This document shows positions 15,435 to 40,549 of a stretch of DNA of 64,000 bases, piece by piece. The DNA is taken from NCBI GenBank assembly GCA_028690665.1, contig JAQVAV010000002.1:1-64000 (forward strand), read 5' to 3'. The notes beneath the pieces are model-generated. The model did no database searches. It had not been told where the DNA came from and worked only from the letters and a program-made list of their open reading frames with translations. Every line of letters starts with the position of its first letter. Position 1 is the first letter of the stretch. Origin of the DNA: Paludibacter sp. Lineage in GTDB: Bacteria > Bacteroidota > Bacteroidia > Bacteroidales > Paludibacteraceae. A program made the translations under genes and the position numbers.

Positions 15435-15475
15435 TTTTTTAACCTTCAAGAAAGAGGATGATCTTTTGAACTGCG

Positions 15476-15505: not shown

Positions 15506-15512
15506 TGTTTTT

Positions 15513-16872
15513 ATGTCAACAACAAGAAAAAATCGAAAGCATAGCCTTTCAGAGAAATTAAAAGTAGTAGAATTATACCAAACAGGTTATGGTTGTACTA
15601 CTATAAGTAGAGAACTCAATATTAGTGAAACCATAGTTCAACGTTGGATAAATATCTATCGAGCATTAGGTCTCTCTGGGTTCAATAAGCAGAGTTCTAA
15701 ACATGTTCCAGTGTCATTTAAAATGCAGGTAGTTAGAGATGTTCTGGAAAAATCATTATCTTGCCAAGTCGGCTGGATTAAAATACAATGTAAGTGAAAC
15801 TGCTGTTAACACATGGGTTTCGAAAGTCAAAACAGGAGGATATTCCTCACTTGCACAGACAAAACAATTAGAGCGACCTTCAAAAGATATGGGAAGACCC
15901 AAGAAAAAACAACCGGAAACAGAATTAGAGAAGCTTCAGCAGGAGCTATGTTATCTTAGAGCAGAGAATGTTTACCTAAAAAAATTGAGAGCCTTAGTAC
16001 AGGAAAGGATAGCACGCGAAAGCGGGAAACAGTCCGGGTCATCGAAGAACTGAGGCTTGAATACGACCTTTCAGATTTATTGAAAGTCTCGTCGATGGCA
16101 CGTGCAACGTTTTATTATCATATAAAACAGTTACAATCCCCTGATAAATATGATTCTATGCGCAAGCAGATTAATGATATTTTTCACGCCAATAAAGGTA
16201 GATATGGCTACAGACGTATTACCCTGGAACTGCACAATAATTCTATGGTAATTAATCATAAAACCGTAGGCAGATTAATGCGGAAAAGTGGATTGAAATG
16301 TCATGTGAGACTCAAAAAGTACCGTTCTTACAGAGGAATTGCAGGTAAAATTGCTTCTAATATCCTTGAGCGGGATTTTAAAGCAGCATCTCCCAACAAG
16401 AAATGGGTGACAGATGTAACGGAGTTTGCATTGTTCGGACACAAAATATATCTATCTCCCATTTTGGACTTGTTTAATGGAGAAATAATAAGTTATAGTA
16501 TAGCCCTCATCCCAATTTACTAATGGTCACAAATATGCTCAGTAAAGCACCCAAAGGCATAAAGAAAGATACAGAGCTTGTTTTACATTCTGATCAGGGT
16601 TGGCATTATCTCAACATGCAACTTATCAAAGAATGCTTAAAAACAAAGGAATAGTGCAAAGTATGTCTCGTAAGGGAAATTGTTTAGATAATGCAGTTAT
16701 GGAAAACTTTTTTGGATTACTTAAATCAGAATTGTTATATTTAGAGAAATTTAGCTCCATCGAAAACTTTGAATATGAGCTTAAGAGCTATATTCATTAC
16801 TATAACAACTTTAGAATCAAAGAGAAACTAAAAGGACTAAGTCCGGTTATGTTTCGAACTCAGTCCAATTAA
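15513..16872 (+). pseudogene. IS150-type transposase (OrfA-OrfB), frameshifted
   Basis: The OrfA helix-turn-helix (KLKVVELYQTGYGCTTISRE) begins at 15513 but the frame is lost near 15755-15780 and resumes +1 with a second HTH and a coiled coil. An A7 run at 15978-15984 is a normal programmed -1 frameshift site and leads into OrfB. OrfB carries the DDE catalytic core: Asp in WVTDVTEF, Asp in HSDQGWHY and Glu in DNAVMENFFG. The frame breaks again near 16503 and near 16610. Three lesions besides the programmed shift make it non-functional. Confidence 0.88.
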
Positions 16873-17050
16873 ATTTTAATTATTAATCCGTCCAACTTTT
16901 GGGGGTAGATCAGCAAATTGATACCCTCTTTTTTGAAATATATCTATTTGTTAACTTGTGGGAAATTTTATTTGTTGAATATTAAGCTCCCTTTTTCTTT
17001 TTAGAGGAAACTACCCCCGCCATTTAATTAAGAAATTATTTGAAAAATAG

Positions 17051-17058
17051 TACCTTTG
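17051..17058 (+). promoter_or_regulatory. -7 box for the transglutaminase-RNase H pair
   Basis: TACCTTTG is an exact TAnnTTTG match about 23 bases before the ATG at 17081. A canonical -33 TTTG at 19 bases spacing is not present. Confidence 0.45.
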
Positions 17059-17080
17059 TCAGTGTTTAAAAATATTGGAT

Positions 17081-18271
17081 ATGATGATTATTCAGAGGGT
17101 TCGTCATGGTTGGCGACTGATAATGCTGGTGGCAATATTGTTAATTGGAGGTGGACTGTATTGGTTTAATTATTCTTCTTTTAGCCCCGGATTTGAAATT
17201 ACTGATGATTTGGGTGGGAATATTTTCCCTTCTGCTATTTTGTCGGTTGCAACAACCGACGAACAGGTAATTGTTCCTGATGATTCCATGTATGTTGGTA
17301 ATCCGAAATCTCTGATTGCTGTACATCTTCGTTCTGGAAAAGCTAACAGCCGGGTGAGGATAGAAGTGGCTGAGTCAAAATTTTTCTCTCGTTCGGTTTC
17401 TGAATTTGTATTGAATGATGCGCGTACCGGATATTATATTTATCCGGATATTATTTGGAACTATGATGCGCTGAAAAATAATGTGCAAGCCGAACCAGTA
17501 AGTGTTGTGGTGTCAGTGGAGATAAATGGTAAGGAGCTGGGTCAACAGGTACGCACATTCTCTGTTCGTAGTATCAACGAGTGTCTGTTAGGTTATGTCA
17601 GCCATGCTAAAAAATATCATGATACAGGTATTTTTTTTGCTGCATACGTTAACGAAGATCATCCCATGATTGATCAGGTGTTACGCGAAGCATTGAACAC
17701 CCGAATTGTCAATCGTTTCCCGGGATATCAGGTGGGTGGCCCTGCTGCTGTAGAAAAACAGGTGTATGCCCTTTGGAATGTCTTGCAAAAGAGAAAGTTC
17801 CGTTATAGTTCTGTTTCCAATACCAGTCTTTCAAGTAATGTTGTATTTTCACAAAGGGTACGAACGTTCGAAGATGCCCTGAACTCTTCCCAGATCAATT
17901 GTGTGGATGGTAGTGTCCTTTTTGCATCTCTTTTACGCGCTATCAATATAACGCCCGTACTCATTCGCACCCGTGGGCACATGTTTGTGGGATATTATAC
18001 CGATTCACATAAAAAGGGAATTAGTTATCTCGAAACAACCATGATTGGTGATGTGGATATGGATGATTTTTTCCCGGACGAACAACTGGATTCGACTATG
18101 GTTGGAAAATCACAAAACCAAATGTCGCTGATTACATTTGAGAAATCTAAAGAATATGCCCTGAAAAAATACCAGCAAAATGAAGAAAATATCCGTTCTG
18201 GTAAGCAGGGTTATATGTTTCTGGAAATATCCAAAGCTGTTCGGCGCAATATTCAGCCAATAGGAAAATAA
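17081..18271 (+). CDS. Membrane-anchored transglutaminase-like protein
   Basis: A 396-residue protein with one N-terminal membrane segment (about 12-29), a beta-rich middle part (about 40-165) and a transglutaminase/cysteine-protease fold. The triad is readable: Cys274 in INCVDGSVLFASLL, His300 in RTRGHMFVGYY and an acid near 318-324 (LETTMIGD). The bulk should lie in the periplasm. Its substrate is unknown. I prefer the ATG at 17081 over the in-frame TTG at 17075. The next gene follows after 27 bases, so they probably share a transcript. Confidence 0.7.
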   Translation: MMIIQRVRHGWRLIMLVAILLIGGGLYWFNYSSFSPGFEITDDLGGNIFPSAILSVATTDEQVIVPDDSMYVGNPKSLIAVHLRSGKANSRVRIEVAESKFFSRSVSEFVLNDARTGYYIYPDIIWNYDALKNNVQAEPVSVVVSVEINGKELGQQVRTFSVRSINECLLGYVSHAKKYHDTGIFFAAYVNEDHPMIDQVLREALNTRIVNRFPGYQVGGPAAVEKQVYALWNVLQKRKFRYSSVSNTSLSSNVVFSQRVRTFEDALNSSQINCVDGSVLFASLLRAINITPVLIRTRGHMFVGYYTDSHKKGISYLETTMIGDVDMDDFFPDEQLDSTMVGKSQNQMSLITFEKSKEYALKKYQQNEENIRSGKQGYMFLEISKAVRRNIQPIGK

Positions 18272-18298
18272 TAGACAGAATAAAGAAAACTAATACGT

Positions 18299-19093
18299 TT
18301 GAATCCTGTAAAACTTAACATACATATAGATCTGGTGGACGAAACTAAAATCGGTTGCCGGATTACGGATGCTAATACCAGTAATCAGCTGTTGTATTAT
18401 CCGGTTGAAAGGACTGTGGAGTTCTCGGAACAAAACGTGTTGGTTGGTACGATTAACAAAAATTACGATCAGTTTGAAAAAGTGATCCGTTCAGCTATTG
18501 ATGGAAAAATCAGAAAAGGTCAGAAGATCCGTTGTGTGTTTATTGAGAATTTTCCTTTTTTGAAAGAAGCTGATTTTGACAAGTATATTATCGTTGATCG
18601 TCGGAACAACAAGTTGGAAATTACGATGCAGAAAGTTCCGGTTGAGGAAGTCGCACAGATATATGCAGATGGCTCGTATGCTTCAGAAACGAAACAATCA
18701 GGGCTGGCTGTATCTGTTTACTGGCCTGATGGACAAAAAAATACTTTTTCAGCAACTTTTCATGGTGGAAGCAATAATCAGATGGAACTAAAGGCGGTAA
18801 TAGAAGGGCTGAAGTTATTGACAGATGAAGATACGATTCAAGTGAATACCGATAGCCGGTATGTTATTCGTGGATTGGCACAGTGGATCCATTTTTGGTG
18901 CTATAACGACTGGCAATCAGCTTACGGACAACCCGTGAAATTTGCCCGGGACTGGCAGGAAGCTGATGCATTGTGCCGGCAAAAAAGAATTATTTTCTAT
19001 TGGGTAAAAGGTCATTCGGGTAATGAGGAACACGGTATTTGCCACGATTTGGCAAAACATTCAGCGATAATTAAGATTGATAAGAATTTGTAA
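18299..19093 (+). CDS. RNase HI domain with a novel N-terminal domain
   Basis: The C-terminal half (about 117-257) is a ribonuclease HI fold that cuts RNA in RNA-DNA hybrids. The metal ligands are present: Asp124 in YADGSY, Glu163 in NNQMELKAV, Asp185 in NTDSRYV, and His239 with Asp250 in VKGHSGNEEHGICHDLA. The first 115 residues form a separate beta-rich domain that I do not recognise; it is not the usual hybrid-binding domain. The start is a TTG, because the next in-frame Met lies near residue 110, inside the protein. The gene is convergent with the MATE gene. Confidence 0.8.
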   Translation: MNPVKLNIHIDLVDETKIGCRITDANTSNQLLYYPVERTVEFSEQNVLVGTINKNYDQFEKVIRSAIDGKIRKGQKIRCVFIENFPFLKEADFDKYIIVDRRNNKLEITMQKVPVEEVAQIYADGSYASETKQSGLAVSVYWPDGQKNTFSATFHGGSNNQMELKAVIEGLKLLTDEDTIQVNTDSRYVIRGLAQWIHFWCYNDWQSAYGQPVKFARDWQEADALCRQKRIIFYWVKGHSGNEEHGICHDLAKHSAIIKIDKNL

Positions 19094-19135
19094 ACAGCTT
19101 ACTAACTATGATTGAATGAGTCCATTTTTTCTGAA

Positions 19136-20458
19136 TTATATTTCATTTTCTCTCCAATTTCCTTTTTTGAGGAAGAGATAACCCAACCCGCCATTTAATG
19201 TCCAGTAAACAAATTCCGACATCCATACAACCCATACTTCTTGCCGGTTGTAAATTGCAGTATAATAAACGTATGAAATGTAAAAAATCAATGTGATTAT
19301 TTCTATAAAAAAGGCTGTTTGTGTACTTCCTGTTCCTGATAGTCCGTTGATTATGACATTGCTTGCTGCAAAAAATGCTACCGCAAAACTTACAACTCTG
19401 ATAACAGGGACAGAGGCCAGTATCAAATCATGATTGTCTGTGTAAATGTGGGCAAATAACTCAGGGAAGATTAAGGTCAGAATCAGCAATGGGGAAACAA
19501 GGAGCAACGCTATTCGAATGATTTTGTTGATGGTTTTTACTACTTCCTCTTCCTGGCCGGCTCCAATCATGTTACTAACTAATGTACTGGCAGTTGTTGA
19601 AAGAGCTGATGCCGGGATCATAAGTAGTACATACATGCTGCGCCCTATATTTGTAACTGCGAGCGGACGTTCTCCCATTCTTTCGATAAAAATGAAAAAT
19701 AGAAACCATGTTGATATGGATATGAAAAATTGAAACATTATAAAAACAGAAAGATTGAGTATCAGACCAATTGTTTTAAAATCAATTTTTATCGTTGAAA
19801 ATAATCCGTATTTTTTGAGATTTCCATAAATCAGGGTATGAAAGAATAGGTAAAACAAAGTTACTGCTTCGGCAATGACTGATGCAATGGCAGCTCCTTC
19901 AATTCCAAGTTCCGGAAATCCGAATTTTCCGAAAATCAAAACATAATCAAACAGAATATTGGTCACCGCTGTAATAATAGCAGAGGTGGTTAATATTCTG
20001 GTTTGTGTGATACCTACATAAAAACCTCGAAAAATAACATTCAGAAATATAAATATATATCCGTAGATACGCCAGTTGAGATACCGGACAGCAGCATCGT
20101 AAATGTGCTCTGAACTAACCAGCCTATGCATAAGATGAGGTATCCCGTATACAGAGGCTCCGAAAAGTAAAACAGCCAATATGGCATTAAAGAGTAAACC
20201 ATTGTTGAAAATCGGGCCGATCTGTTGGTATTTCTCTTCACCATTTCGTCGACCAATTAAAATCTGCACTCCCTGACTAAATCCGAAGCCTATCATGTAA
20301 ATAGCAAAATAAAAGACTCCGGCTATGGCAGATGCTCCTAAGGCAACTTCACTCACTCGTCCCAAAAATGCCGTATCAGTAACGTTGATAATATTTTGTG
20401 CAATAAGCGTGAGAATAATTGGATAGGAGATTTTGAGTATATTTTTAGTCGAGTTCAC
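19136..20458 (-). CDS. MATE-family efflux transporter
   Basis: A 440-residue inner-membrane protein with twelve hydrophobic segments arranged as two repeats. Family signatures are TDTAFLGRVSEVALGASAIA near 27-46 and, in the second half, SALSTTASTLVSNMIGAGQEEEV near 279-301. MATE pumps exchange cations (Na+ or H+) for drugs or organic cations. The substrate is unknown. The start is GTG; no ATG is available nearby. It belongs to the NorM/DinF-like branch common in Bacteroidetes. Confidence 0.88.
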   Translation of the reverse strand: MNSTKNILKISYPIILTLIAQNIINVTDTAFLGRVSEVALGASAIAGVFYFAIYMIGFGFSQGVQILIGRRNGEEKYQQIGPIFNNGLLFNAILAVLLFGASVYGIPHLMHRLVSSEHIYDAAVRYLNWRIYGYIFIFLNVIFRGFYVGITQTRILTTSAIITAVTNILFDYVLIFGKFGFPELGIEGAAIASVIAEAVTLFYLFFHTLIYGNLKKYGLFSTIKIDFKTIGLILNLSVFIMFQFFISISTWFLFFIFIERMGERPLAVTNIGRSMYVLLMIPASALSTTASTLVSNMIGAGQEEEVVKTINKIIRIALLLVSPLLILTLIFPELFAHIYTDNHDLILASVPVIRVVSFAVAFFAASNVIINGLSGTGSTQTAFFIEIITLIFYISYVYYTAIYNRQEVWVVWMSEFVYWTLNGGLGYLFLKKGNWRENEI

Positions 20459-20698: not shown

Positions 20699-21475
20699 AT
20701 GATATACGCAGGATTTTTACTACTGGGAATTGTTGCCGGAATATTATCCGGATTATTCGGTATTGGAGGAGGTATCGTTATGGTGCCATCTCTCATTGTT
20801 TTTTTCGGCCTTGATATTCTGGATGCAAATGCTACATCTTTGGCCGCTATGCTTTTACCGGTAGGTGTCCTGGGAGTGTGGGCTTATTATAAAGCAGGAA
20901 TGATCAATGTGAAAGAATCGTTGTGGATTTCCCTGGGATTGTTTTTAGGGTCTTTTGTCGGAGGTGAATTTGCCATTAATATCAGTGAAAGTTTATTGTC
21001 CAAGCTTTATGCAGGTATTCTGCTTTATATTGCATTGTCGTATTTTGATTTATTTAAATATTTTCGAAAAAAGCCAAAGAAAGAAGTATTGATACAGAGT
21101 AAACCAGCTATTCATAAAACTTGGGCATTCATTTTGGTCGGGATGGGAGCCGGAATTTTTGCTGGCCTTTTCGGTAAAGGTGGCGGAATTGTTATTGTTC
21201 CAATGTTAATAGGTTTGTTCCATTACGATTCAAAAGCTGCTGTTGCAACCTCACTTGCGGCCTTGCAACTCCCTGTTGGTTTGCCCAGTGTGATAATTTA
21301 TGCCGATGCCGGACATTTGAATATACCCAATGCAGCTTTTATTGCAGTGGGTATGGTGGCTGGAGCATTTTTCGGGTCTAAATTGGGAGTGAAGTTGCCT
21401 TCTTCTATGTTTAAAAAGATTTATGCTCTTTTCCTGATTGCTGTTGCTGTGTTTATGGTTTATAAATACATTTAA
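20699..21475 (+). CDS. TSUP-family (TauE/SafE) anion exporter
   Basis: A 258-residue membrane protein with about eight helices. The duplicated glycine-rich motif GIVAGILSGLFGIGGGIVMVP (about 9-29) and GAGIFAGLFGKGGGIVIVP in the second half defines the TSUP family. Members move sulfite, sulfoacetate, thiosulfate or other small organosulfur anions out of the cell. No specific substrate can be read. It lies about 3 kb from the DsrE/TusA/Qmo-like operon, which makes a sulfur compound plausible but unproven. Confidence 0.85.
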   Translation: MIYAGFLLLGIVAGILSGLFGIGGGIVMVPSLIVFFGLDILDANATSLAAMLLPVGVLGVWAYYKAGMINVKESLWISLGLFLGSFVGGEFAINISESLLSKLYAGILLYIALSYFDLFKYFRKKPKKEVLIQSKPAIHKTWAFILVGMGAGIFAGLFGKGGGIVIVPMLIGLFHYDSKAAVATSLAALQLPVGLPSVIIYADAGHLNIPNAAFIAVGMVAGAFFGSKLGVKLPSSMFKKIYALFLIAVAVFMVYKYI

Positions 21476-23596: not shown

Positions 23597-24274
23597 TTAT
23601 CCGTTCTGACTTATCAGCTTCAATGACTTTTTATTTATGATTTCAATCTTTTTTCCGGTAATTTTTATTAATCCGTCTTTGTCGAATTCCGTCAGTACAC
23701 GACTGACACTCTCTCGACTTGTGTCGACCAGGTTGGCAAATTCCGATTGAGACAATGGTAATATAAATATATCCGATTTAAAAATATTGTCGGCAAATTC
23801 AATCAGAGCATCAGCCATATTACCACGTATAAGTTTTTGTGTCCTGTTTGCACAGCGGTGGAACGATTCTAATTCGTTTTGGCAAAGTTCCAGAATAATT
23901 TCGTGGGAAAAGGCCCTGTTTTCGTCTAAAATTTTTTCAAAAATATTGACATCAATAAAACATACTTCCACATTTGTTACTGCCGTTACGGAATATTGAT
24001 TGATTTTATCACCGAAGGTTGTAGGCAATCCGAGATAAGTTGGTGATTTTACCAAACGTACGATTTGTTCATGATAAGGTCCCTGTAAATGAATTTTTAC
24101 AATTCCGGTTCGCAGAAAAACAACGTTGGTAGAATACATTCCCTGCTTAATAATTGTGTCGTTTTTTTTGAATTCTAAAACTATGTGATTTTCAGATAGT
24201 TTGTCAAAACTGTTGTCGCTTAGCGTGGCAGCTGCTTTATAATTAAAGGGGCATTGTCTACAATCGTTTTGCAT
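23597..24274 (-). CDS. Crp/Fnr-family transcriptional regulator
   Basis: A 225-residue regulator with a cyclic-nucleotide-binding-like beta-barrel (about 22-125) and a C-terminal winged helix. The recognition helix lies in SEFANLVDTSRESVSRVLTEF (about 177-197). Two Cys near the N terminus (CRQCPF) and others could sense redox or bind a cluster, but a full Fnr cysteine set is not evident. It diverges from the DsrE-TusA-Qmo-like operon. The intergenic region holds a perfect CRP-type palindrome that lies inside this gene's own promoter, so it is probably an autoregulator and likely regulates the operon too. Confidence 0.88.
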   Translation of the reverse strand: MQNDCRQCPFNYKAAATLSDNSFDKLSENHIVLEFKKNDTIIKQGMYSTNVVFLRTGIVKIHLQGPYHEQIVRLVKSPTYLGLPTTFGDKINQYSVTAVTNVEVCFIDVNIFEKILDENRAFSHEIILELCQNELESFHRCANRTQKLIRGNMADALIEFADNIFKSDIFILPLSQSEFANLVDTSRESVSRVLTEFDKDGLIKITGKKIEIINKKSLKLISQNG

Positions 24275-24303: not shown

Positions 24304-24334
24304 CAAATATATGGATTGTGATGTAAATCACAAA
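24304..24334 (-). promoter_or_regulatory. Consensus promoter of the Crp/Fnr gene
   Basis: On the minus strand TTTG (24334-24331), exactly 19 bases, then TATATTTG (24311-24304). This is a perfect Bacteroidetes promoter 30 bases before the ATG. Confidence 0.85.
24316..24333. promoter_or_regulatory. CRP/FNR-type operator TTGTGA-N6-TCACAA
   Basis: TTGTGATGTAAATCACAA has two perfect 6-bp arms. It fills the spacer and overlaps the -33 box of the divergent regulator promoter. It also lies about 75 bases upstream of the expected start of the plus-strand operon, where activators often bind. Rex-type regulators use a very similar motif, so the owner is inferred from position. Confidence 0.75.
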
Positions 24335-24480: not shown

Positions 24481-25044
24481 ATGCAAGACTTAGAAGCACA
24501 AATTGCAGAATTACAAAGTCAGATTGAAACTTTACAGGAAAAAGTTTCAGACCTTGAAAACACGAACAGAGACCAGTTGTCCATAGCCATCGTTTCAGGT
24601 GACATGGATAAAATTTTGGCCGCAATGATCATTTCTTTAGCAGCTGCGGCAATGGATACCAAAGTAAAACTTTTCTTTTCTTTCTGGGCTTTATCGGCTC
24701 TGAGAGATCCTAAAAAAACAGCGCAGGGAAAAGATTTTATTTCTAAAATGTTTGGATTTATGCTTCCAAAAGGAAAAAACAAACTCGGACTTTCCAAAAT
24801 GAACATGGCCGGCATGGGCCCTCAAATGATGAAACATATCATGAAGAAAAAGAACGTTATGTCGCTTGACGAAATGTTTAAACAAGCAGCTGAACTCGAC
24901 ATCGACATTATTGTATGCGAAATGTCTATGGATTTAATGGGCTTCAAGAAAGAAGAAATCATTGACTATCCTCATTTATCGTATGGAGGAGCAGCAACGT
25001 TTGCTGTTGATGCCGGTCAGAGCGGAGCTCAGTGGTTTATTTAG
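24481..25044 (+). CDS. DsrE/DsrF-like sulfur-carrier family protein
   Basis: A 187-residue cytoplasmic protein. Residues 1-33 are a heptad-rich coiled coil. The DsrE/F/H-like domain follows: IAIVSGDMDKILAAMIISLA, the FFSFWALSALR strand, and the helical insert with KMNMAGMGPQMMKHIMKKKN. A single candidate persulfide-carrying residue, Cys146, sits in DIIVCEMSMDLMGF. Relatives carry or transfer sulfane sulfur, often with TusA and Hdr/Dsr-type complexes. It opens an operon with tusA and Qmo-like genes, which supports the same role. Confidence 0.85.
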   Translation: MQDLEAQIAELQSQIETLQEKVSDLENTNRDQLSIAIVSGDMDKILAAMIISLAAAAMDTKVKLFFSFWALSALRDPKKTAQGKDFISKMFGFMLPKGKNKLGLSKMNMAGMGPQMMKHIMKKKNVMSLDEMFKQAAELDIDIIVCEMSMDLMGFKKEEIIDYPHLSYGGAATFAVDAGQSGAQWFI

Positions 25045-25076
25045 AAGAACCATGGATTATTAGACAAAGAATAAAA
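25041..25076. repeat. Intergenic phrase repeat, family A, copy 3
   Basis: AGAACCATGGATTATTAGAC followed by AAAGAATAAAA, directly after the DsrE-like stop codon, repeats the phrase found at 6341 and 3171. Confidence 0.45.
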
Positions 25077-25106
25077 ATATAGTACTTAATTTAATAAATT
25101 ATTATC

Positions 25107-25358
25107 ATGACAGTAGACGAATTAAAAACAGTAAGTGTAGCAAAATCAGTAGATGCACGTGGTACCGCTTGCCCGGGGCCGCTTTTGGAAGCAAAAAAAG
25201 CCATCGGAGCAATTAAGGGTGGTGATGTAATGGAAGTTTTGTCTTCAGACGAAGGAACAAAACAGGATATCCCAAAATGGTGCAGCAAACAAGGTCACGA
25301 ATATCTTGGCTTTGTTGAAGAAAACGGTTACTTCAAGGTTTACATGAAGAAAAAATAA
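25107..25358 (+). CDS. tusA: TusA-family sulfurtransferase
   Basis: An 83-residue TusA/SirA-like protein. The defining CPxP motif is present as Cys22-Pro-Gly-Pro in the segment GTACPGPLLEAKKAI. The active-site Cys carries a persulfide passed on from a donor such as a Cys desulfurase or rhodanese. Here it is encoded between a DsrE-like protein and Hdr/Qmo-like subunits rather than alone, which suggests delivery of sulfur to an electron-transfer complex rather than tRNA thiolation. Confidence 0.9.
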   Translation: MTVDELKTVSVAKSVDARGTACPGPLLEAKKAIGAIKGGDVMEVLSSDEGTKQDIPKWCSKQGHEYLGFVEENGYFKVYMKKK

Positions 25359-25433
25359 TTTCTTCAGCTTTTTATTCAGAACGCAGACGATGCAGATTTG
25401 TGTCGTTTGCGTCTACAAACAAAATCAAAAAAC

Positions 25434-25841
25434 ATGGGAGACATAAATAAACAAACCGCTAAAATTTTGGTGTTTTCTACCGAAAAAATTTCAGACCCGG
25501 CTATCGATATGGCGGGATTATTGAAATTACATTACCCTCCTACAGTATACACTATTTCCGTTCCCTGTTCAAGTGGTATAAAGCCGAGCTGGATTATGCA
25601 TGCTTATGAAAAAGGCTTCGATGGAGTTTTTATTGCTGCTGATGGCAGCGATTGTGTTTACGGCGAAACATGTACCGAAAAAACAGGAAAATTGGTGGGA
25701 AAAACACACAATTTGATGAAAGAAAAAGAAATTGACCCTGCACGTTTGCGTATGGCTGCTATGTGCTCGGTTTGTAGCGAATCGTTTGTAAAACAAATGC
25801 GGAGTTTCAACGAGTATTTACTTAAAACATTACACGCCTGA
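25434..25841 (+). CDS. MvhD/FlpD-type [2Fe-2S] protein
   Basis: A 135-residue homologue of the methyl-viologen hydrogenase delta subunit (FlpD), which passes electrons to HdrA. The five expected Cys are present: Cys45 (VPCSSG), Cys74 and Cys80 (DCVYGETC), Cys111 and Cys114 (MCSVC). I use the ATG at 25434; an in-frame TTG lies 36 bases upstream. In sulfate reducers this domain is fused to the end of QmoB. Here it is a separate gene. Its stop codon overlaps the next ATG by one base, so translation is coupled. Confidence 0.82.
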   Translation: MGDINKQTAKILVFSTEKISDPAIDMAGLLKLHYPPTVYTISVPCSSGIKPSWIMHAYEKGFDGVFIAADGSDCVYGETCTEKTGKLVGKTHNLMKEKEIDPARLRMAAMCSVCSESFVKQMRSFNEYLLKTLHA

Positions 25842-27142
25842 TGAAAGAAGCAATAAAAAATATCACTTACGATGCATTGGTGATCGGAGCCGGAATTGCA
25901 GGTGGTGAGGCTGCTCTGAATCTTGCCAACAACGGATACAAAGTGCTTTTGGTTGATAAAGAATTATCCGTGGGCGGCAAAATGATTATGTTGAGTAAAG
26001 TGTTTCCAACCCTCGATTGTGCCGCTTGTATCACAACCCCGAAAGTGTCCGAAATATCCCGCCATCCGAATATCACTATTTTTACCGGGAGTGAAGTCAG
26101 CAATATAAGGAAAATAAGCGAAAACGAATTTACGGCCAAAGTAACAAAACATCCGCGCTATGTGCATGTTGAAGACTGTACGGCCTGCCAAATGTGCGAA
26201 AATGCATGTCCTGTAAACGTGCGCGACCAATATCAGTTCGGATTGATCGGACGTAAAGCTGCGTTCATTCCTTTCAGTATATGTAGTCCGAAAGCTGCGG
26301 CCATTGATATTGACAATTGTACGCTTTGCGGAGCCTGCGAAAAAGCCTGTCCGACCAACTGTATTGATTTTACGATGGAAGAAGAAATTCTGAATCTGCA
26401 TATTAAAACAGTAGTGGTTGCTACCGGATTTAAATTGTTCGATGCTGAAAATATGCCCCGTTACGGTTACGGAGTATATAAAAATGTGATTACCGCATTA
26501 CAAATGGAGCGCGAATTGGCTCCGACCCGTCCTTACAATACTATTCTCCGTCCGGGAGATGGAAAAGTTCCCGATAAAATTGCTTACGTGCTTTGCGTAG
26601 GCTCACGCGACGCTTCGGTCGGAAACCCGATTTGTTCGCAAATTTGCTGTATGTATTCCATCAAACAGGCTCAGCTGCTAATGGGAGCGTTGCCTATGGC
26701 CGATGTGACGATTTATTATATCAATATCCGTTCGTTTGGGAAAGGTTTCGAAGAATTTTATCAGCAGGCTAAAGGTATGGGTGTGAACTTTGTAAAAGGA
26801 AAAATTGGTAAAATTTCCGAAAAAGAAGATGGAAATCTCATTCTTCGTTACGAAGATATTAACGAAGGAAAACTTCAGGAAGCCGAGCACGATATGGTCA
26901 TTCTTTCGACCGGCGTATTACCAAATACAGGAATTGAGAAATTTTTCGAGAACCAGACATTGTCGCTTGATCCGTTCCATTTTGTAGGTCAGACCGACGC
27001 ACTTCTCAGCCCGGCTAAAACAAGTATCGATGGCGTTTTTGTTGCCGGTACGGCCATTGGTCCAATGGATATTCCGGATACTATTTTGTCGGCGGGAGCA
27101 GCATCCTCCGAAGCAATCAGTTATTTAGTTGAACACCCTTAA
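25841..27142 (+). CDS. HdrA/QmoA-like FAD and iron-sulfur oxidoreductase
   Basis: A 433-residue cytoplasmic flavoprotein of the HdrA/QmoA family. FAD-binding motif VIGAGIAGGEAAL is at about 15-27. The conserved DCAACITTPK loop lies near 64-73. Two [4Fe-4S] motifs follow: DCTACQMCENACPV (about 110-123) and NCTLCGACEKACPT (about 157-170). The length agrees with QmoA (about 400 residues) and not with the longer methanogen HdrA. QmoA relays electrons between a membrane quinone module and a soluble partner. It is the fourth gene of the operon, overlapping the MvhD-like gene by one base. Confidence 0.8.
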   Translation: MKEAIKNITYDALVIGAGIAGGEAALNLANNGYKVLLVDKELSVGGKMIMLSKVFPTLDCAACITTPKVSEISRHPNITIFTGSEVSNIRKISENEFTAKVTKHPRYVHVEDCTACQMCENACPVNVRDQYQFGLIGRKAAFIPFSICSPKAAAIDIDNCTLCGACEKACPTNCIDFTMEEEILNLHIKTVVVATGFKLFDAENMPRYGYGVYKNVITALQMERELAPTRPYNTILRPGDGKVPDKIAYVLCVGSRDASVGNPICSQICCMYSIKQAQLLMGALPMADVTIYYINIRSFGKGFEEFYQQAKGMGVNFVKGKIGKISEKEDGNLILRYEDINEGKLQEAEHDMVILSTGVLPNTGIEKFFENQTLSLDPFHFVGQTDALLSPAKTSIDGVFVAGTAIGPMDIPDTILSAGAASSEAISYLVEHP

Positions 27143-27156
27143 AAGGCAAATCTGTT

Positions 27157-29094
27157 ATGGAAAAGAAACCCAAAAAGATAGGAGTTTATATTTGCCATTG
27201 CGGTGGTAATATCTCCGATTATGTAGATGTAGAAAAAGTCCGTCAGTCGGTTGAGGGTGAGGATATTGTTTTTATTGCCAAAACAACGATGTTTGCCTGT
27301 TCCGATGCCAATCAGCGCGATATGGTGGAAGACATTAAAGCCAACGATCTCGATGGCGTGATTGTAGCTTCCTGTTCGCCGAAATTACATTTACTTACAT
27401 TTCGCAATGTATCGGTTCGTGCCGATTTGAATAAATACACTTATGTTCATGCCAATATTCGCGAACAGGCTTCGTGGGCGCATTCCGACAATAAAGCCGG
27501 AGCTACCGAAAAAGCTATTCACTTGGTAAAAGCGGCTATTGCCAAATCTCGTTATGCCGAAGCTCTGGAAACCAATAAAGTAAAGGCGATTAAAGCGGTA
27601 GCGGTAGTAGGAGCAGGTGTAGCAGGAATGAAAGCTGCTTTGTCGCTTTCCGAAAAGGACTGTGAAGTATTGCTTATTGAGAAAGAACCTTTCGTTGGTG
27701 GTCGTGTAGCGCAGTGGGATGCCATTGCAGGTACAAAAGAGTCGGGTAAAGAAATGGTAAAACGCCTTTATGACGAAGTGATAAAGAGAAGCAATATTAC
27801 CATCATGACCAACAGCGAGGTGATTGAAAATAAGGGTAGTGTAGGTAATATTGCACTAAAAATCAGAAAAATTCCCCGTTATATCAATACTTCCGACTTT
27901 AAACCGGAAGAATTAAAAAAAGCTGTTTCGGTTTGTCCTGTGGAAGTTTCGGACGAATTCAGCTTTGGTCTGACTAAACGTAAAGCTATTTACGAAAGCG
28001 AACCGGGAGAATACCCGCAAATTCCGGTGGTTGATATGAAAAACTGTACCCGTTGCGGAGCCTGCGAAAAGGTTTGCAAGGCGGTTGATTTTTCAGAAAA
28101 AGAGGAAATTGTAGAATTTGCGGTTGGCTCGGTGCTGATGGCTACCGGATTCGACCCGTATACTCCGGCTCAGGGAGAATATGGCTACGGAGAATCGTCG
28201 AAAGTAGTTACTTTGGGTCAGTTTAAACAAATGGTTGCTGACCAGAACGGAAAACTTATGCATAATGGAAAACAAGTGAAAAATATCGCTTACATCTATT
28301 GTGTGGGAAGTCGTCAGACTGAAGGTGAAAATACTTACTGCTCGCGTAATTGCTGTACAGCAACTATTTTCTCGGCCATTACTGCAAAACAAAAATTTAC
28401 GGATATAAATAATTATCATTTCAACCGTGGAATTCGCAGTTACGGAAAGCAGGAAATTATGTATGCCGATTCACTGCGTCAGGGAGACATTTATTTGCAG
28501 GGAAATGATGATAATCTGCCGGAAGTTATTGTAAACGGCAATAAAACTTCTGTTAAGGTGAATGATATTCTGACGGCCGGAAAAGAAGTAGAGGTTGATG
28601 CCGATTTGGTAGTACTTGTAACGGGAATGGTTCCGCGTGCCGATCATTCGGTAGGAACATTGTTCAAGCTACCCAAGGGGCGTGATAAGTTCTATACCGA
28701 AGTACACATGAAACTTCGTCCGGTTGAAACGGCTATCGACGGTGTTACCATTGCCGGTACCTGTCAGGGTCCGAAAAATATCGCTGAATCGGTTAATTCT
28801 GCATTGGCTGCAAGTACTAAGGCTTATTCCATATTGAGTAAAGGAGAACTGGAAACCGATCCGCAAATTGCACGTATTGATGCTGAAAAATGCACCTGGT
28901 GTGGCGCTTGTGAAGAGGCTTGTCCGTTCGATGCCATACTGAAAGTTGAAAAAGATGGAAAAACTGTTGCAGAAATAAACAATACAGTTTGTAAAGGTTG
29001 CGGTATGTGTGCTCCCGTTTGCGAGCCGGATGCGGTTAATCTGATTGCATATTCGAGCGAAATGATAACAAGCATGATTGATGCGTTGGCATAA
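27157..29094 (+). CDS. HdrA/QmoB-like flavoprotein, one ferredoxin site lost
   Basis: A 645-residue HdrA-type protein. The N-terminal HdrA domain shows VYICHCGGNISDYVDVEKV and ASCSPKLHLLTFRN. The FAD motif VAVVGAGVAGMKAAL is near 147-161. The first ferredoxin motif normally before the FAD-linked CPVEV is degenerate: only one Cys remains (KAVSVCPVEV near 258). Three other cluster motifs are intact: NCTRCGACEKVC near 293, KCTWCGACEEACP near 581, and CKGCGMCAPVC near 612. It resembles QmoB without the fused MvhD domain, which is encoded separately at 25434. It probably pairs with the preceding QmoA-like subunit. Confidence 0.78.
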   Translation: MEKKPKKIGVYICHCGGNISDYVDVEKVRQSVEGEDIVFIAKTTMFACSDANQRDMVEDIKANDLDGVIVASCSPKLHLLTFRNVSVRADLNKYTYVHANIREQASWAHSDNKAGATEKAIHLVKAAIAKSRYAEALETNKVKAIKAVAVVGAGVAGMKAALSLSEKDCEVLLIEKEPFVGGRVAQWDAIAGTKESGKEMVKRLYDEVIKRSNITIMTNSEVIENKGSVGNIALKIRKIPRYINTSDFKPEELKKAVSVCPVEVSDEFSFGLTKRKAIYESEPGEYPQIPVVDMKNCTRCGACEKVCKAVDFSEKEEIVEFAVGSVLMATGFDPYTPAQGEYGYGESSKVVTLGQFKQMVADQNGKLMHNGKQVKNIAYIYCVGSRQTEGENTYCSRNCCTATIFSAITAKQKFTDINNYHFNRGIRSYGKQEIMYADSLRQGDIYLQGNDDNLPEVIVNGNKTSVKVNDILTAGKEVEVDADLVVLVTGMVPRADHSVGTLFKLPKGRDKFYTEVHMKLRPVETAIDGVTIAGTCQGPKNIAESVNSALAASTKAYSILSKGELETDPQIARIDAEKCTWCGACEEACPFDAILKVEKDGKTVAEINNTVCKGCGMCAPVCEPDAVNLIAYSSEMITSMIDALA

Positions 29095-29126
29095 ATTCAG
29101 TTAATCAATAAATTATTTACTGACTT

Positions 29127-29408
29127 ATGGAAGTAGAAAAAGGAAAAACAGCAAAATACCTTCGTGAAAAATTGGGCGGAATACCCGAACAAGCCAAGGA
29201 AAATCTGAAAGAATTCAATGCTATCAAAAAGAAAATGCTTGATGCCTTGAAAGAAGAAGATCTCACAGTAAAACAAATGTCCGAGAAAATTGGAATGCCT
29301 ACACACGAAGTAGTTTATTATTTGATGTCATTGGTAAAATATGGTTTGGTCAAAACCGGTGAAATAGATGACATGGACGAGTATTATACCTATAAATTGA
29401 ATAAGTAA
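29127..29408 (+). CDS. Small winged-helix DNA-binding-like protein
   Basis: A 93-residue protein with a winged helix at about 48-90 (LTVKQMSEKIGMPTHEVVYYLMSLVKYGLVKTGE). A basic helical stretch precedes it. It resembles the single-domain wHTH proteins of the ArsR/MarR kind but has no sensor domain. It is placed between the QmoB-like and QmoC-like genes, and its stop overlaps the next ATG by one base. It could regulate the operon or act as a structural part of the complex. I cannot name a family. Confidence 0.7.
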   Translation: MEVEKGKTAKYLREKLGGIPEQAKENLKEFNAIKKKMLDALKEEDLTVKQMSEKIGMPTHEVVYYLMSLVKYGLVKTGEIDDMDEYYTYKLNK

Positions 29409-30454
29409 TGGCAAAGATAAATCCTGCTTTTGGAAAAGAATTAAAGAAATACGGTGCAGTCAATTTTAATGCCTGCTACAATTGCGGTAACTGTACCGCC
29501 GTATGTTCTTTATCAACAGAAGACGTTTCGTTTCCGCGCGAAATGGTTCGTCTGAGCGCTTTGGGACTCGAAGATGAAATTACTTCTTCTCTCAAACCAT
29601 GGGAATGTTATTATTGCGGTGAGTGTTCAACACATTGTCCGCAGGAAGCCAATCCGGGTGAACTGATGATGTCGCTCCGCCGGTGGCTGACAGCCAAATA
29701 CGACTGGACAGGACTTTCGGGTCTGATGTACAAATCGTTGCCGGCAACCATTGTGGCATTCATTCTGACATTTGCGGCTGTACTGGTGTTTGCATTTATG
29801 AATAACTTCAATCTGGATCATATCATGCATGTAGGGCACTTGTTCGAAGCTATCGCTATCGGAACTATCATGGTCGTGATTTTTATTCCGAACATTGCGC
29901 GCATGTGGTATTTTACAGTATTGCGTGGTGAGGATAAAGTTTCTGTGAAGAAGTATTTCAGCAGCCTGGGTGAGTTTTTTGTTACGATGTTTGTGCAGAA
30001 ACGTGCACTCGATTGTGACGATAATCGTTTTCGTTGGTTCGAACACTTTATTCTTGTGTTAGGCTATTTGTCTCTTTTGTTCACTACGGTATTTTTGGAT
30101 TGGTTCTCAACGCCGTATTTAGCAGTAAATATCTTCGGATATTTGGTAAGTGCCATTGTCTTTGTAGTAACCATTGACTTTGTAGGCAGCCGTATTAAAA
30201 AGAAAAAAGCCCTGAACAAACATTCCCAACCGTCCGACTGGTTTTTTGTGATTTGGTTGTTCCTTATGGGATTTACAGCATTTTTTGTACGCTTGTTTAT
30301 CGATCTGGATATTATAGAATCGAATAAGTGGTTATATATTATTCATTTTACAGTGTTGGTGCAATGGGCTTTGATTATTGTGCCTTTCGGTAAATGGACT
30401 CACTTTCTGTATCGTTCGTTTGCCATGTATTTTGCAAAGCTGAAAGAAAAATAA
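29408..30454 (+). CDS. QmoC-like (HdrC-HdrE fusion) membrane subunit
   Basis: A 348-residue fusion. Residues 1-95 hold an HdrC-type dicluster ferredoxin: CYNCGNCTAVCSL near 23-35 and CYYCGECSTHCP near 67-78. About six membrane helices follow (between 108 and 335) with helix His residues that could bind haem b (HVGHLFEAI, WFEHFILVL, IIHFTVLVQ, WTHFLYR). This is the QmoC layout: the membrane module that trades electrons with menaquinone. It ends the operon; two hairpins follow. The protein anchors the QmoA/B-like subunits at the cytoplasmic face. Confidence 0.82.
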   Translation: MAKINPAFGKELKKYGAVNFNACYNCGNCTAVCSLSTEDVSFPREMVRLSALGLEDEITSSLKPWECYYCGECSTHCPQEANPGELMMSLRRWLTAKYDWTGLSGLMYKSLPATIVAFILTFAAVLVFAFMNNFNLDHIMHVGHLFEAIAIGTIMVVIFIPNIARMWYFTVLRGEDKVSVKKYFSSLGEFFVTMFVQKRALDCDDNRFRWFEHFILVLGYLSLLFTTVFLDWFSTPYLAVNIFGYLVSAIVFVVTIDFVGSRIKKKKALNKHSQPSDWFFVIWLFLMGFTAFFVRLFIDLDIIESNKWLYIIHFTVLVQWALIIVPFGKWTHFLYRSFAMYFAKLKEK

Positions 30455-36899: not shown

Positions 36900-38780
36900 A
36901 TGACAAAAGTAAAAACTTTGCCAGAATTAATTAAAATGAAGGAGACGCTGGTTTCACAGCGGGCTTGTTACAGCAAGCAACTTCATGTCTGCGGAGGTAC
37001 AGGATGTCAGGCAGCTCAAAGTAAAACATTGGATGTGACTTTGAAAGAAATTGTTACCGACAAAGGTCTGGATAAAGATGTAAAAATAACTATGACTGGT
37101 TGTTTTGGGTTTTGCGAAAAAGGTCCGATTGTAAAGGTTTTGCCGGATCACACTTTTTATACCGAAGTGAAACCAACCGATGCTCGTGAAATTATCGATG
37201 AACATGTTGTAAAAGGTAATCAGGTAGAACGCCTTTTATATGTTGACCCAACGACAAGAGAACATGTCCCGAATTCCGACAAAATGGAATTTTATAAAAA
37301 ACAGCTGCGTATTGCTTTGCGCAATTGTGGCGAGATTAATCCTGAAGATATACATGACTACATAGAAAATGATGGCTATCAGGCTTTGGGAAAAGTACTC
37401 ACTCAGATGGATGCTCAGCAAACCATTGATATTATCAAGAAGTCTGGATTACGTGGCCGCGGGGGAGGAGGTTTCCCAACCGGTTTGAAATGGGAAATAA
37501 CCAGCAAATCGCAAGCCGATCAAAAATATGTGGTTTGTAATGCCGACGAAGGAGACCCGGGTGCATTTATGGATCGCGCTATCCTCGAAGGTGATCCGAA
37601 TTCGATAATTGAAGCCATGGCAATTTGTGGATATGCCATTGGAGCCAGTAAAGGACTCGTTTATATACGTGCCGAATATCCTCTTGCTATTTCGAGACTT
37701 AAAAAAGCCATTGCTCAGGCTCGTGAGTTAGGTTTGCTCGGAGATGATATTCTGGGAACAGGATTTAATTTCGATATACAACTACGCTATGGTGCTGGTG
37801 CTTTTGTTTGTGGAGAAGAGACAGCACTGATTCACTCCATGGAGGGCAAACGCGGGGAACCTTCATTTAAACCTCCTTTCCCTTCTGTTTCTGGTTATCA
37901 GGGAAAACCTACCAATGTAAATAATGTAGAAACATTTGCCAATATTCCCGTTATTATCAATAAAGGTGCTGAATGGTTTGCTTCCATAGGAACAGAAAAA
38001 TCGAAAGGAACCAAAGTGTTTGCTTTGGCAGGAAAAATCAACAATGTGGGTCTTATTGAAGTCCCAATGGGAATCACTTTACGTGAAATTATTTTCGAAA
38101 TTGGAGGTGGAATTAAAGATGGTAAAAAGTTCAAGGCTGTTCAAACCGGCGGCCCTTCCGGTGGATGTTTGACTGAGAAACATCTTGATACACCAATTGA
38201 TTATGATAACCTGACTGCCGTTGGATCGATGATGGGTTCAGGCGGCATGATTGTTCTTGATGAAGATGATTGTATGGTATCGGTCGCAAAATTTTATCTC
38301 GATTTTATAGTAGAAGAATCTTGTGGAAAATGTTCTCCCTGCCGTATCGGAAACAAGCGTCTTTATGAAATTCTCGAAAAAATTACTCAGGGAAAAGGAA
38401 CGCTTGAAGATCTTGAGAAACTAAAGAACCTGAGTAATGTAATTAAGGATACTTCACTTTGTGGATTGGGACAAACATCTCCGAATCCTGTGCTTTCTAC
38501 TTTGCAAAACTTTTACGATGAATACATCGAACATGTGGTGGATAAAAAATGTCGTGCCGGACAGTGTAAGGCATTATTATATTATGTGATTGATGAGAAT
38601 GTTTGTATTGGCTGTACGGCTTGTAAACGAAGCTGTCCGGTAAATGCAATTACAGGAGACAAAAAACAACCGCATGTTATTAACCAAGACATTTGTATTA
38701 AATGTGGAGCCTGCGAAGAAAAATGTGCATTCGATGCCATTAGTATTAAATTAGAACACAAAGTAAAAGTAGTAGAATAA
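36900..38780 (+). CDS. hydB: Bifurcating [FeFe]-hydrogenase subunit HydB (NuoF-like)
   Basis: A 626-residue NADH-binding flavoprotein subunit. An N-terminal thioredoxin-like [2Fe-2S] domain has Cys31, Cys36, Cys68 and Cys72. The NuoF core binds FMN and NADH (RGRGGGGFPTGLKWE near 184-198), then an SLBB domain and the NuoF cluster motif ESCGKCSPCRIGNKR near 478. Two extra [4Fe-4S] motifs end the protein (CIGCTACKRSCP and CIKCGACEEKC). This order is that of HydB of trimeric electron-bifurcating hydrogenases, which couple NADH and reduced ferredoxin to H2 formation. It overlaps hydA by one base. Confidence 0.93.
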   Translation: MTKVKTLPELIKMKETLVSQRACYSKQLHVCGGTGCQAAQSKTLDVTLKEIVTDKGLDKDVKITMTGCFGFCEKGPIVKVLPDHTFYTEVKPTDAREIIDEHVVKGNQVERLLYVDPTTREHVPNSDKMEFYKKQLRIALRNCGEINPEDIHDYIENDGYQALGKVLTQMDAQQTIDIIKKSGLRGRGGGGFPTGLKWEITSKSQADQKYVVCNADEGDPGAFMDRAILEGDPNSIIEAMAICGYAIGASKGLVYIRAEYPLAISRLKKAIAQARELGLLGDDILGTGFNFDIQLRYGAGAFVCGEETALIHSMEGKRGEPSFKPPFPSVSGYQGKPTNVNNVETFANIPVIINKGAEWFASIGTEKSKGTKVFALAGKINNVGLIEVPMGITLREIIFEIGGGIKDGKKFKAVQTGGPSGGCLTEKHLDTPIDYDNLTAVGSMMGSGGMIVLDEDDCMVSVAKFYLDFIVEESCGKCSPCRIGNKRLYEILEKITQGKGTLEDLEKLKNLSNVIKDTSLCGLGQTSPNPVLSTLQNFYDEYIEHVVDKKCRAGQCKALLYYVIDENVCIGCTACKRSCPVNAITGDKKQPHVINQDICIKCGACEEKCAFDAISIKLEHKVKVVE

Positions 38781-40549
38781 TGGAAACAATCAAGCTGACG
38801 ATAGATAATAAAATAGTAGAGGTTGAGAAAGGAACAACCGTATTGAATGCTGCCAAACAAATTGGAATAGATATTCCCACACTTTGCCATTTTGAACTTT
38901 GCGATATGGGAATTGAAAATAAACCGGGTGGCTGTCGCGTGTGCGTGGTAGAAATTGATGGCCGACGCAATCTGGCTCCTTCATGTGCAACCGAAGCAAC
39001 CGAAGGAATGGTGGTGCAAACACACAGTATTCGTGTGATGAATGCCCGGCGTACTATCACTAAACTGATTATTTCGGATCATCCGTTCGACTGTCTTGTT
39101 TGTGCCAAATCAGGCAGTTGTGAATTACAGGCTCTTGCTACCAAATTCGGAATTCGTGAAATTCCTTACCAGGGAGAGAAATCAACTTATCGTAAAGATA
39201 CTTCTCCTTCCATTATTCGTGATGTGGATAAATGTATCATGTGCCGTCGCTGCGAAATGATGTGTAACGAAGTGCAGACCGTAGGAGCACTTTCGGCGGT
39301 TAACCGTGGATTTAAAGCCGTAGTTGCACCGGCTTTTGAAATGGATTTGGAAAAATCGCCTTGTACTTATTGTGGTCAGTGTGTGTCGGTTTGCCCGACC
39401 GGAGCTTTAACTGAAGTAGATCATACTATCAGCGTTATTCGCGCATTATCAGATAAGACCAAAACAGTAGTAGTACAAACAGCTCCTGCCGTTCGTGCGG
39501 CATTAGGTGAAGAATTCGGTCTTGAACCGGGAACTTCGGTTACCGGAAAAATGGTGTCTGCACTTCGCCGACTTGGGTTTAAATACGTATTTGATACCGA
39601 TTTTGCAGCTGACCTTACTATTATGGAAGAAGGTACGGAACTCCTGCAACGTTTGAAGAAACATTTGAGCGGTGACAGCGATGTGAAATTGCCAATTCTG
39701 ACTTCGTGTTGTCCGGGTTGGGTAAATTTCTTTGAACATAATTTTCCGGATTTATTGGATGTCCCTTCTACAGCTAAATCTCCACAACAAATGTTCGGTG
39801 CGATTGCCAAATCGTATTTTGCAGAAAAAATTGGTGTAAAACGCGAAGATATGGTAGTGGTTTCGGTAATGCCCTGTCTGGCTAAAAAATACGAATGTCA
39901 GCGTGACGAATTTAAAGTAAATGGAAATCCGGATGTTGATTTTTCTTTATCTACCCGGGAATTGGCTGCATTTATCAAACAGGCCAATATCGACTTTATG
40001 GATTTGCCGGATGAAGACTTTGACAATCCGATGGGTGAATCGACCGGTGCCGGTGTGATTTTCGGAAATACAGGAGGAGTGATTGAAGCTGCATGTCGTA
40101 CCGCTTATGAGTTACATACCGGTAAAAAACTTGAAAAAGTAGAATTTGAGGTTTTGCGCGGTATGGATGGTATCCGTTCGGCAACGATTGATTTTGACGG
40201 ATTACCTCTTAATATAGGTATTGCCCACGGTTTAGCTAATGCCCGTAAGCTTCTGGATGATGTTCGTGCCGGAATATCAAAATATCATGCTATTGAAATT
40301 ATGGCTTGTCCAGGTGGATGTATCGGAGGCGGAGGTCAGCCTTTCCATCACGGTCATAGCGAAATTCTGAAAAAACGTGCGGAGGCTCTTTATGCCGAAG
40401 ATGCCGGAAAACCGATTCGTAAATCGCACGAAAATCCGTTTATTATTCAGCTTTACGACGAATATTTAGATCGTCCTTGCGGGCATCGCTCTCATGAATT
40501 ATTACATACTGCATATTTCGATAAAAGTCAGGAAGTAGTAATAGAATAA
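38780..40549 (+). CDS. hydA: [FeFe]-hydrogenase catalytic subunit HydA
   Basis: A 589-residue catalytic subunit. N-terminal [2Fe-2S] domain (Cys36, Cys41 region, Cys52, Cys55, Cys69), the His101/Cys105/Cys108/Cys114 cluster, two [4Fe-4S] motifs (Cys152-162 and Cys195-205), then the H-cluster domain. All three signatures are intact: TSCCPGW (Cys310), MPCLAKKYE (Cys366) and MACPGGCIGGGGQP (Cys510, Cys514). The C-terminal small-subunit-like tail (HENPFIIQLYDEYLDRPCGHRSH) is fused. The layout is the NAD-linked group A type. It should be cytoplasmic and reversible. Confidence 0.96.
   Translation: METIKLTIDNKIVEVEKGTTVLNAAKQIGIDIPTLCHFELCDMGIENKPGGCRVCVVEIDGRRNLAPSCATEATEGMVVQTHSIRVMNARRTITKLIISDHPFDCLVCAKSGSCELQALATKFGIREIPYQGEKSTYRKDTSPSIIRDVDKCIMCRRCEMMCNEVQTVGALSAVNRGFKAVVAPAFEMDLEKSPCTYCGQCVSVCPTGALTEVDHTISVIRALSDKTKTVVVQTAPAVRAALGEEFGLEPGTSVTGKMVSALRRLGFKYVFDTDFAADLTIMEEGTELLQRLKKHLSGDSDVKLPILTSCCPGWVNFFEHNFPDLLDVPSTAKSPQQMFGAIAKSYFAEKIGVKREDMVVVSVMPCLAKKYECQRDEFKVNGNPDVDFSLSTRELAAFIKQANIDFMDLPDEDFDNPMGESTGAGVIFGNTGGVIEAACRTAYELHTGKKLEKVEFEVLRGMDGIRSATIDFDGLPLNIGIAHGLANARKLLDDVRAGISKYHAIEIMACPGGCIGGGGQPFHHGHSEILKKRAEALYAEDAGKPIRKSHENPFIIQLYDEYLDRPCGHRSHELLHTAYFDKSQEVVIE

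Follow-up and report, generated by a model that had tools for sequence, protein, structure and literature searches.

A Qmo-like gene cluster with the sulfur carriers DsrE2 and TusA in Paludibacter and related Bacteroidales

What does a membrane complex of the Qmo type do in a bacterium without visible enzymes of adenosine 5'-phosphosulfate (APS) or dissimilatory sulfite metabolism, and what is its partner when its genes stand next to those of two sulfur carriers? The question is raised by a stretch of 64,000 nucleotides of Paludibacter sp. (assembly GCA_028690665.1, contig JAQVAV010000002.1, positions 1 to 64,000), here called the window, from a genome that is 99.9% complete (G000; further genomes and loci are numbered G and L). 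At 24481-30454 of its plus strand the window carries the genes for DsrE2, TusA, MvhD, a QmoA-like, a QmoB-like, a winged-helix (wHTH) and a QmoC-like protein, and a preliminary description of this DNA was right on both the order and the place of all seven. We suggest, giving it a probability of just under one half, that the product of the operon is a membrane-bound TusA-persulfide oxidoreductase with a link to menaquinone, and in one of its two forms also to the nicotinamide cofactor NAD(P)H, which most likely reduces sulfane sulfur.

Genes and core types

Beyond the matches in Table 1, the window's DsrE2 reaches 64 bits with the NCBIfam equivalog NF047629 (cut-off 210) and its TusA 46 bits with NCBIfam TusA (cut-off 78), and both HdrA-type flavoproteins stay below the HdrA2 model's own cut-off of 1100. 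The active-site cysteine of DsrE2 is kept in 56 of 56 scored relatives, the CPGP motif of TusA in 61 of 62 (1 unscored), five cysteines of MvhD in 64 of 64, and His144, 213, 313 and 332 of QmoC are invariant across 26 Bacteroidales sequences. The QmoC-like protein starts with a 2x[4Fe-4S] HdrC-like domain, followed by a helical membrane part with conserved histidines, and the domain search places several iron-sulfur sites in the core. As had been claimed, HdrB-type CCG subunits are absent: the domain search found none in the seven operon proteins, and the sole CCG matches elsewhere in the genome lie within one 243-aa open reading frame (ORF) on a different contig. The 1-base stop/start overlaps reported earlier are real, but there are two, at 25841 and 29408, rather than several.

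Table 1. Features of the operon and its upstream region in the window
Feature	Coordinates	Strand	Basis
DsrE2-type sulfur carrier, 187 aa, Cys in CEMSM	24481-25044	+	PF13686 157.7 bits, cut-off 25
TusA sulfur carrier, 83 aa, CPGP motif	25107-25358	+	PF01206 86.5 bits, cut-off 28.6
MvhD/FlpD-type iron-sulfur subunit, 135 aa	25434-25841	+	PF02662 96.9 bits
QmoA-like HdrA-type flavoprotein, 433 aa, type I without NAD(P)H insert	25841-27142	+	HdrA2 model 475 bits
QmoB-like HdrA-type flavoprotein, 645 aa, C-terminal 2x[4Fe-4S] ferredoxin domain	27157-29094	+	HdrA2 560 bits, Fer4
Winged-helix (wHTH) protein, 93 aa, probable subunit	29127-29408	+	weak Pfam/NCBIfam matches only
QmoC-like membrane subunit, 348 aa	29408-30454	+	NF038018 154.7 bits, cut-off 300
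Crp/Fnr-family regulator, divergent from operon	23597-24274	-	cNMP_binding + HTH_Crp_2
Palindrome TTGTGA-N6-TCACAA, probable Crp/Fnr site	24316-24333		sequence inspection

Relatives of the operon come with two kinds of core. In type I, to which the window belongs, QmoA has about 433 aa, QmoB about 645 aa, and the wHTH protein has a gene of its own; in type II QmoA has 921-952 aa (two sequences) and QmoB, of 732 aa, carries the wHTH at its C-terminus. The type II QmoA carries, as an insert at its first ferredoxin region, an NAD(P)H domain resembling NfnB/GltD (residues ~182-684 in L033), which is missing from the window's QmoA. The insert scores 486 bits with the NAD(P)-binding family NF009410 (cut-off 516) and 152 bits with Pyr_redox_2, and by its match resembles glutamate synthase small subunits. 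Window and type II QmoA agree at about 49-61% in tblastn pieces.

The two types offer a natural experiment on which subunits go together. Identities were compared among 21 loci of the window's genus, 10 of type I and 11 of type II, 3 of 24 being cut or unfetched. Between the types the identity of TusA is 61.5% (54.9-68.4), that of MvhD 59.8%, the N- and C-terminal parts of QmoA 59.9 and 65.7%, QmoB 51.5% and the wHTH protein 28.7%, and for each of these five the between-type values lie under those of all pairs within a type. In contrast, the ranges between and within types overlap for Crp (71.6%), DsrE2 (77.0%) and QmoC (76.8%). Quick trees with 34-36 rows, made from the window, 20 loci of type I and every type II locus that is complete among the 80 described below (15 loci), agree with this division, requiring one change of core type each for TusA, MvhD and QmoB (100% support), compared to 4 for QmoC, 5 for DsrE2 and 8 for Crp, of which supported branches force at least 3, 3 and 4, respectively. 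The nearest relative of the window's QmoC is a type II QmoC (84%). Most likely, judging from these sequences, the contiguous TusA-MvhD-QmoA-QmoB-wHTH block was swapped as a whole, with the genes on either side staying fixed. Since TusA segregates by core type and DsrE2, QmoC and Crp do not, TusA looks like the cognate partner of the HdrA core, grouped with it rather than with DsrE2. This co-segregation is our best evidence for TusA as soluble partner, and it makes protein-bound sulfur rather than APS, as the preliminary description had proposed, the best reading.

The wHTH protein appears to belong to the same assembly. All 17 of 17 type II loci have it fused to QmoB, and it is a separate ORF in 61 of the 63 others; the two that are left, L067, which scores as type II, and L133, are truncated where their contigs end. 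Because of the fusion it is probably a subunit of the complex rather than a regulator. Its predicted ArsR/SmtB-like fold (AlphaFold, mean predicted local distance difference test score (pLDDT) 86.7) may still allow a DNA-binding role. A function as operon regulator was rejected, given the fusion and a separate Crp/Fnr gene with its conserved palindrome, and so was that of a DsrC-like carrier, as the window copy has no cysteine.

On the side of the sulfur carriers, extra DsrE-family genes accompany 24 of the 80 loci, and six examples are all DsrE or DrsE_2 by Pfam. One class resembles, judged by eye, a secreted lipoprotein; L038:8752-9249 and L135:10157-10624 encode such a lipoprotein-like protein with a CPTC motif, within or just after the operon. 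The L135 record, which is titled Bacteroides fragilis and looks like a mislabelled metagenome-assembled genome (MAG), also has a shorter QmoB (7008-8714, 568 aa) that seems to be without the inserted ferredoxin region.

HdrA-type cores contain flavin adenine dinucleotide and iron-sulfur relays, MvhD is an electron relay, and QmoC-type proteins exchange electrons with menaquinone. We infer the electron path, the reductive direction, sulfide as product and the contact with menaquinone. DsrE2, in some relatives joined by another protein of the DsrE family, would hand sulfane sulfur to TusA, and loaded TusA would dock onto the MvhD-QmoA-QmoB-wHTH core, whose flavins and iron-sulfur clusters would exchange electrons with the TusA sulfur and, via QmoC, with menaquinone. 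In type II the inserted domain would add NAD(P)H as a partner. Running reductively, the complex would release sulfide and could provide fermenting cells with an electron sink in place of Psr/Phs or Dsr.

Conservation, distribution and regulation

Conservation of the order was followed in the best 80 of at least 552 named relatives, to which all locus counts out of 80 refer. The complete seven-gene order is found in 56. Of the remaining 24 loci, 20 begin where their contig does; the other 4 (L104, L105, L128 and L134) have only a shorter DsrE2-like gene before TusA, with L104 and L134 sitting near a contig end. By the count of 56 complete loci among 80 relatives, the arrangement is conserved far above chance and is not restricted to this strain, a restriction that the preliminary description had named as speaking against its proposal.

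A search for QmoC covered 60 genomes, the window's and 59 relatives (36 of the window's genus and 24 others of the order). The full-length protein (E < 1e-170) is present in 24 of the 36 genus genomes, and 2 further ones have only fragments, one of 20 aa and one of 37 aa that lies at a contig end. Among the other 24 genomes, 4 have QmoC at E < 1e-150; G047 adds a fifth case, an operon whose QmoC has diverged. Outside the order, the genes of G318 and G098 follow each other as TusA, MvhD, QmoA, QmoB, wHTH and QmoC. Of 395 Bacteroidota drawn evenly, among which the window's order has few members, 18 genomes gave a QmoC-like match (E <= 1e-20), the window's counted, and the three low-scoring matches that were fetched (G074, G111 and G416) are all Apr-linked. 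The arrangement is widespread in Bacteroidales and occurs in many fermenting members of this group.

The upstream region is conserved as well. A divergent Crp gene precedes 48 of the 56 loci holding all seven genes, and of 50 intergenic regions between Crp gene and operon, the window's among them, 47 contain the palindrome with up to 2 mismatches, compared to 0.54 of 50 after base shuffling. In G033 and G027 the Crp gene lies kilobases from the operon start, and gene and operon each keep their own site. Together, the divergent Crp/Fnr gene and the conserved palindrome point to one regulated unit, and TTGTGA-N6-TCACAA is the probable, predicted site of this regulator. A wide Crp regulon was rejected, since exact sites number 4 in the window's whole genome and 0-3 in each of ten relatives; some of the 4 have ORFs nearby that by eye resemble aconitase and sucCD, which may be chance. 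Petrimonas sp. IBARAKI (G454) has no exact site, and that of its operon (L103) has 2 mismatches.

Two neighbours of the operon in the window may be mentioned here. Upstream, an ORF at 20699-21475 looks similar to exporters of the TauE/SafE type, and downstream, at 36900-41230, three ORFs resemble by eye the electron-bifurcating [FeFe] hydrogenase HydABC, which fits a fermenter.

Sulfur enzymes and physiology of the hosts

In the window's genome and its relatives ALTERNATIVES was sought: aprA, the ATP sulfurylase gene sat (PF01747), molybdopterin oxidoreductases of the Psr/Phs type (PF00384), PF01077 (NIR_SIR) and MenA. AprA over the cut-off was found in one of the 34 genomes searched of the 60, G042, and not in the window's. 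PF01747 had no match in any of 17 genomes and PF00384 none in 13 of 16, with the window's genome and Petrimonas sp. IBARAKI among them in both cases. The one PF01077 protein of the window's genome is a 577-aa CysI-like ORF adjoining CysJ-, CysH- and CysG-like ORFs (by eye), for which reason a DsrAB hidden in this match was rejected, and no DsrAB-type gene was found in this genome. The claimed lack of aprAB, dsrAB and sat is thus supported for the window's genome; across the 34 genomes searched, AprA was likewise absent over the cut-off in all but G042.

The complete genome of Petrimonas sp. IBARAKI has a type II operon and no match to PF00384, PF01077 or PF01747. Its 16S is 99% identical to that of P. 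sulfuriphila, which reduces elemental sulfur (S0) to H2S, and the organism originates from black, sulfide-containing colonies (PMC5940944); part of PMC9695182 also treats Petrimonas as S0-reducing. S0 reduction in fermenters of this type is therefore a testable gap, as this genome lacks the three families yet has the operon. The operon offers a concrete substrate hypothesis, TusA-persulfide, and may help explain the use of elemental sulfur by some Bacteroidales. More tentatively, and with some doubt on our side, one may think of a molybdenum-free S0 respiration widespread in fermentative Bacteroidales, with an HdrA-type membrane complex, TusA-persulfide as true substrate, and a swappable soluble cassette that sets the donors. 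If true, the TusA-MvhD-QmoA-QmoB-wHTH cassette would limit these to menaquinol or ferredoxin in type I or, in type II, also admit NAD(P)H, and the exchange would leave DsrE2, QmoC and the regulator where they are.

The operon could also serve sulfide or persulfide detoxification, or sulfur supply for biosynthesis, instead of energy metabolism. In Escherichia coli, TusA has roles in the modification of tRNA and in making the molybdenum cofactor, as part of PMC4175335 states, and Crp-type control could sense redox stress. We nevertheless regard this as rather improbable: two HdrA-type flavoproteins and a QmoC-like anchor seem costly for such a purpose, and Petrimonas sp. IBARAKI keeps the operon without a PF01077 sulfite reductase.

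Several observations weigh against the TusA-persulfide oxidoreductase as we propose it. Menaquinol is a weak donor for sulfur, so that type I would probably depend on the membrane potential or on a donor of low potential; in type II, NAD(P)H could fill this need. MenA exceeds the cut-off in 12 of 19 operon-bearing genomes, the window's and Petrimonas sp. IBARAKI included, stays under it in 3 and has no match in 4 (G460, G462, G464 and G465). Incomplete MAGs, another route of synthesis or a lack of menaquinone are possible reasons, and menaquinone as partner is thus not secured in every host. The predicted QmoC structure is a poor model (mean pLDDT 62.9) whose best PDB match is not significant (E 0.27). 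In 10 of the 36 genus genomes, one of them a single contig, the QmoC search gave nothing or weak ferredoxin-like matches, and five genus genomes that lack the operon are likewise without PF00384, PF01747 and AprA over the cut-off, so the absence of these genes does not track the operon. The window's genome further encodes a CoA-disulfide-reductase-like protein of 761 aa that contains three rhodanese stretches, as well as a relative of 563 aa; they may form a second persulfide route, by which persulfide reduction could occur without the operon. Moreover, the link to S0 consists of one genome and 16S kinship, and concerns type II whereas the window is type I. Finally, known tusA-dsrE2-hdr clusters belong to sulfur oxidizers, where TusA reacted with tetrathionate and not with polysulfide, according to part of PMC4175335.

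As to the coenzyme A (CoA)-disulfide-reductase-like proteins, the 761-aa one is encoded beside thioredoxin-like and SQR-like ORFs (L178, contig C24, 1512-8921). Such proteins also occur in operon-lacking genomes. Enzymes of this type were rejected as the whole answer, as the best match in Petrimonas sp. IBARAKI reaches only 117 bits and is a lipoyl-dehydrogenase-like ORF. The curated cut-off for CoA-disulfide reductase is, however, passed by no genome, the Thermotoga maritima control included, so that this class stays a candidate.

Comparison with known systems

The relation to Qmo can be followed in the membrane subunit. Against NF038018 the Petrimonas protein (146.1 bits) and that of L167 (223.1) fall below the cut-off like the window's, whereas five of five Apr-linked controls pass (358-510). 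By these scores the window's protein lies outside the curated QmoC family. A tree of 53 rows, with unsettled bootstrap and a long-branch warning, unites the five Apr-linked proteins on a long branch (100/100) and 40 rows of TusA-linked Bacteroidales in a separate clade (100/99); L050, L164 and L167 stand apart, so that TusA linkage needs two changes. The protein that was earlier labelled QmoC-like thus scores under the family cut-off and stands outside the Apr-linked clade.

An ordinary Qmo complex serving an APS reductase encoded elsewhere would agree with the QmoABC-like subunit make-up. We consider it very improbable: besides the missing AprA and PF01747 matches and the distance of the Apr-linked QmoC clade, it would require the reductase to lie in sequence missing from a nearly complete assembly. 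Furthermore, G042 has aprBA-qmoABC on one contig, and a second one bears a short DsrE2-like gene followed by TusA, MvhD, QmoA, QmoB, wHTH and QmoC, so the Apr-linked Qmo and the TusA-linked operon coexist. Among genomes of the order, aprBA-qmoABC was seen in G042 (L052), which has no PF01747 match, and in G049 (L051). The Apr-linked QmoABC of sulfate reducers and Chlorobi shares with the operon two HdrA-like flavoproteins, an HdrC-type ferredoxin/membrane subunit and an MvhD domain, the QmoA of four such loci agreeing with the window's at 32-35%. In the control QmoB of L181, however, MvhD is fused (residues 618-743), whereas here it is a separate gene, and the operon differs in having TusA, DsrE2 and a wHTH subunit, and no aprA or sat.

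With sHdr the operon has in common that TusA and DsrE2 genes adjoin Hdr-like genes, an arrangement described for sulfur oxidizers in part of PMC4175335. It is set apart by the lack of HdrB/CCG subunits, the QmoC-type membrane anchor and hosts related to fermenters. The sHdr likeness would allow the opposite direction, in which oxidation of the sulfane sulfur on TusA would yield sulfite or a thiosulfonate product and menaquinone would take up the electrons, and Apr-Qmo does work oxidatively in a sulfur disproportionator, as part of PMC12142623 reports. This is an unlikely though serious alternative, since the operon is without a CCG/HdrB subunit, Petrimonas sp. IBARAKI is without a PF01077 protein, and the nearest known phenotype is S0 reduction (PMC5940944).

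HdrA-type cores are also bifurcating modules, and the several iron-sulfur sites of the core would suit an electron-bifurcating complex between menaquinone and NAD(P)H (or ferredoxin), with TusA and DsrE2 merely regulating or maturing the enzyme. HdrA 9-11 of anaerobic methanotrophic archaea (ANME-1) have an NfnB insert of the kind seen in type II QmoA (part of PMC9012536), which here, and not in the window's QmoA, stands in a QmoC-anchored, TusA-linked Bacteroidota operon. We find a purely bifurcating role unlikely as well, because TusA and one or two DsrE-family genes recur in the operons and TusA is tied to the core type as strictly as MvhD.

The preliminary description had suggested that a persulfide-dependent menaquinone oxidoreductase would be new as an arrangement. 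Neighbouring tusA-dsrE2 and Hdr-like genes and, in part of PMC10504309, Qmo-type proteins of unclear role without Apr/Dsr had already been published; the specific combination of swappable cores, a wHTH subunit and an anchor of the QmoC type, with HdrB lacking, was unmatched among the open-access titles and abstract openings listed. Qmo-like clusters linked to hydrogenases (L049 and L165, with L163 and L166 grouping along) come close in their QmoC-like and HdrA-like subunits. L166 ends at a contig end and was placed there by likeness; at L049, from the same order, positions 4181-19974 hold two consecutive HdrA/QmoC-like clusters with MvhD and [NiFe]-hydrogenase-like ORFs (by eye). The neighbours in this group are hydrogenase- or HydABC-like ORFs (by eye) rather than TusA and DsrE2, and its five QmoC proteins form a clade of their own (99/93).

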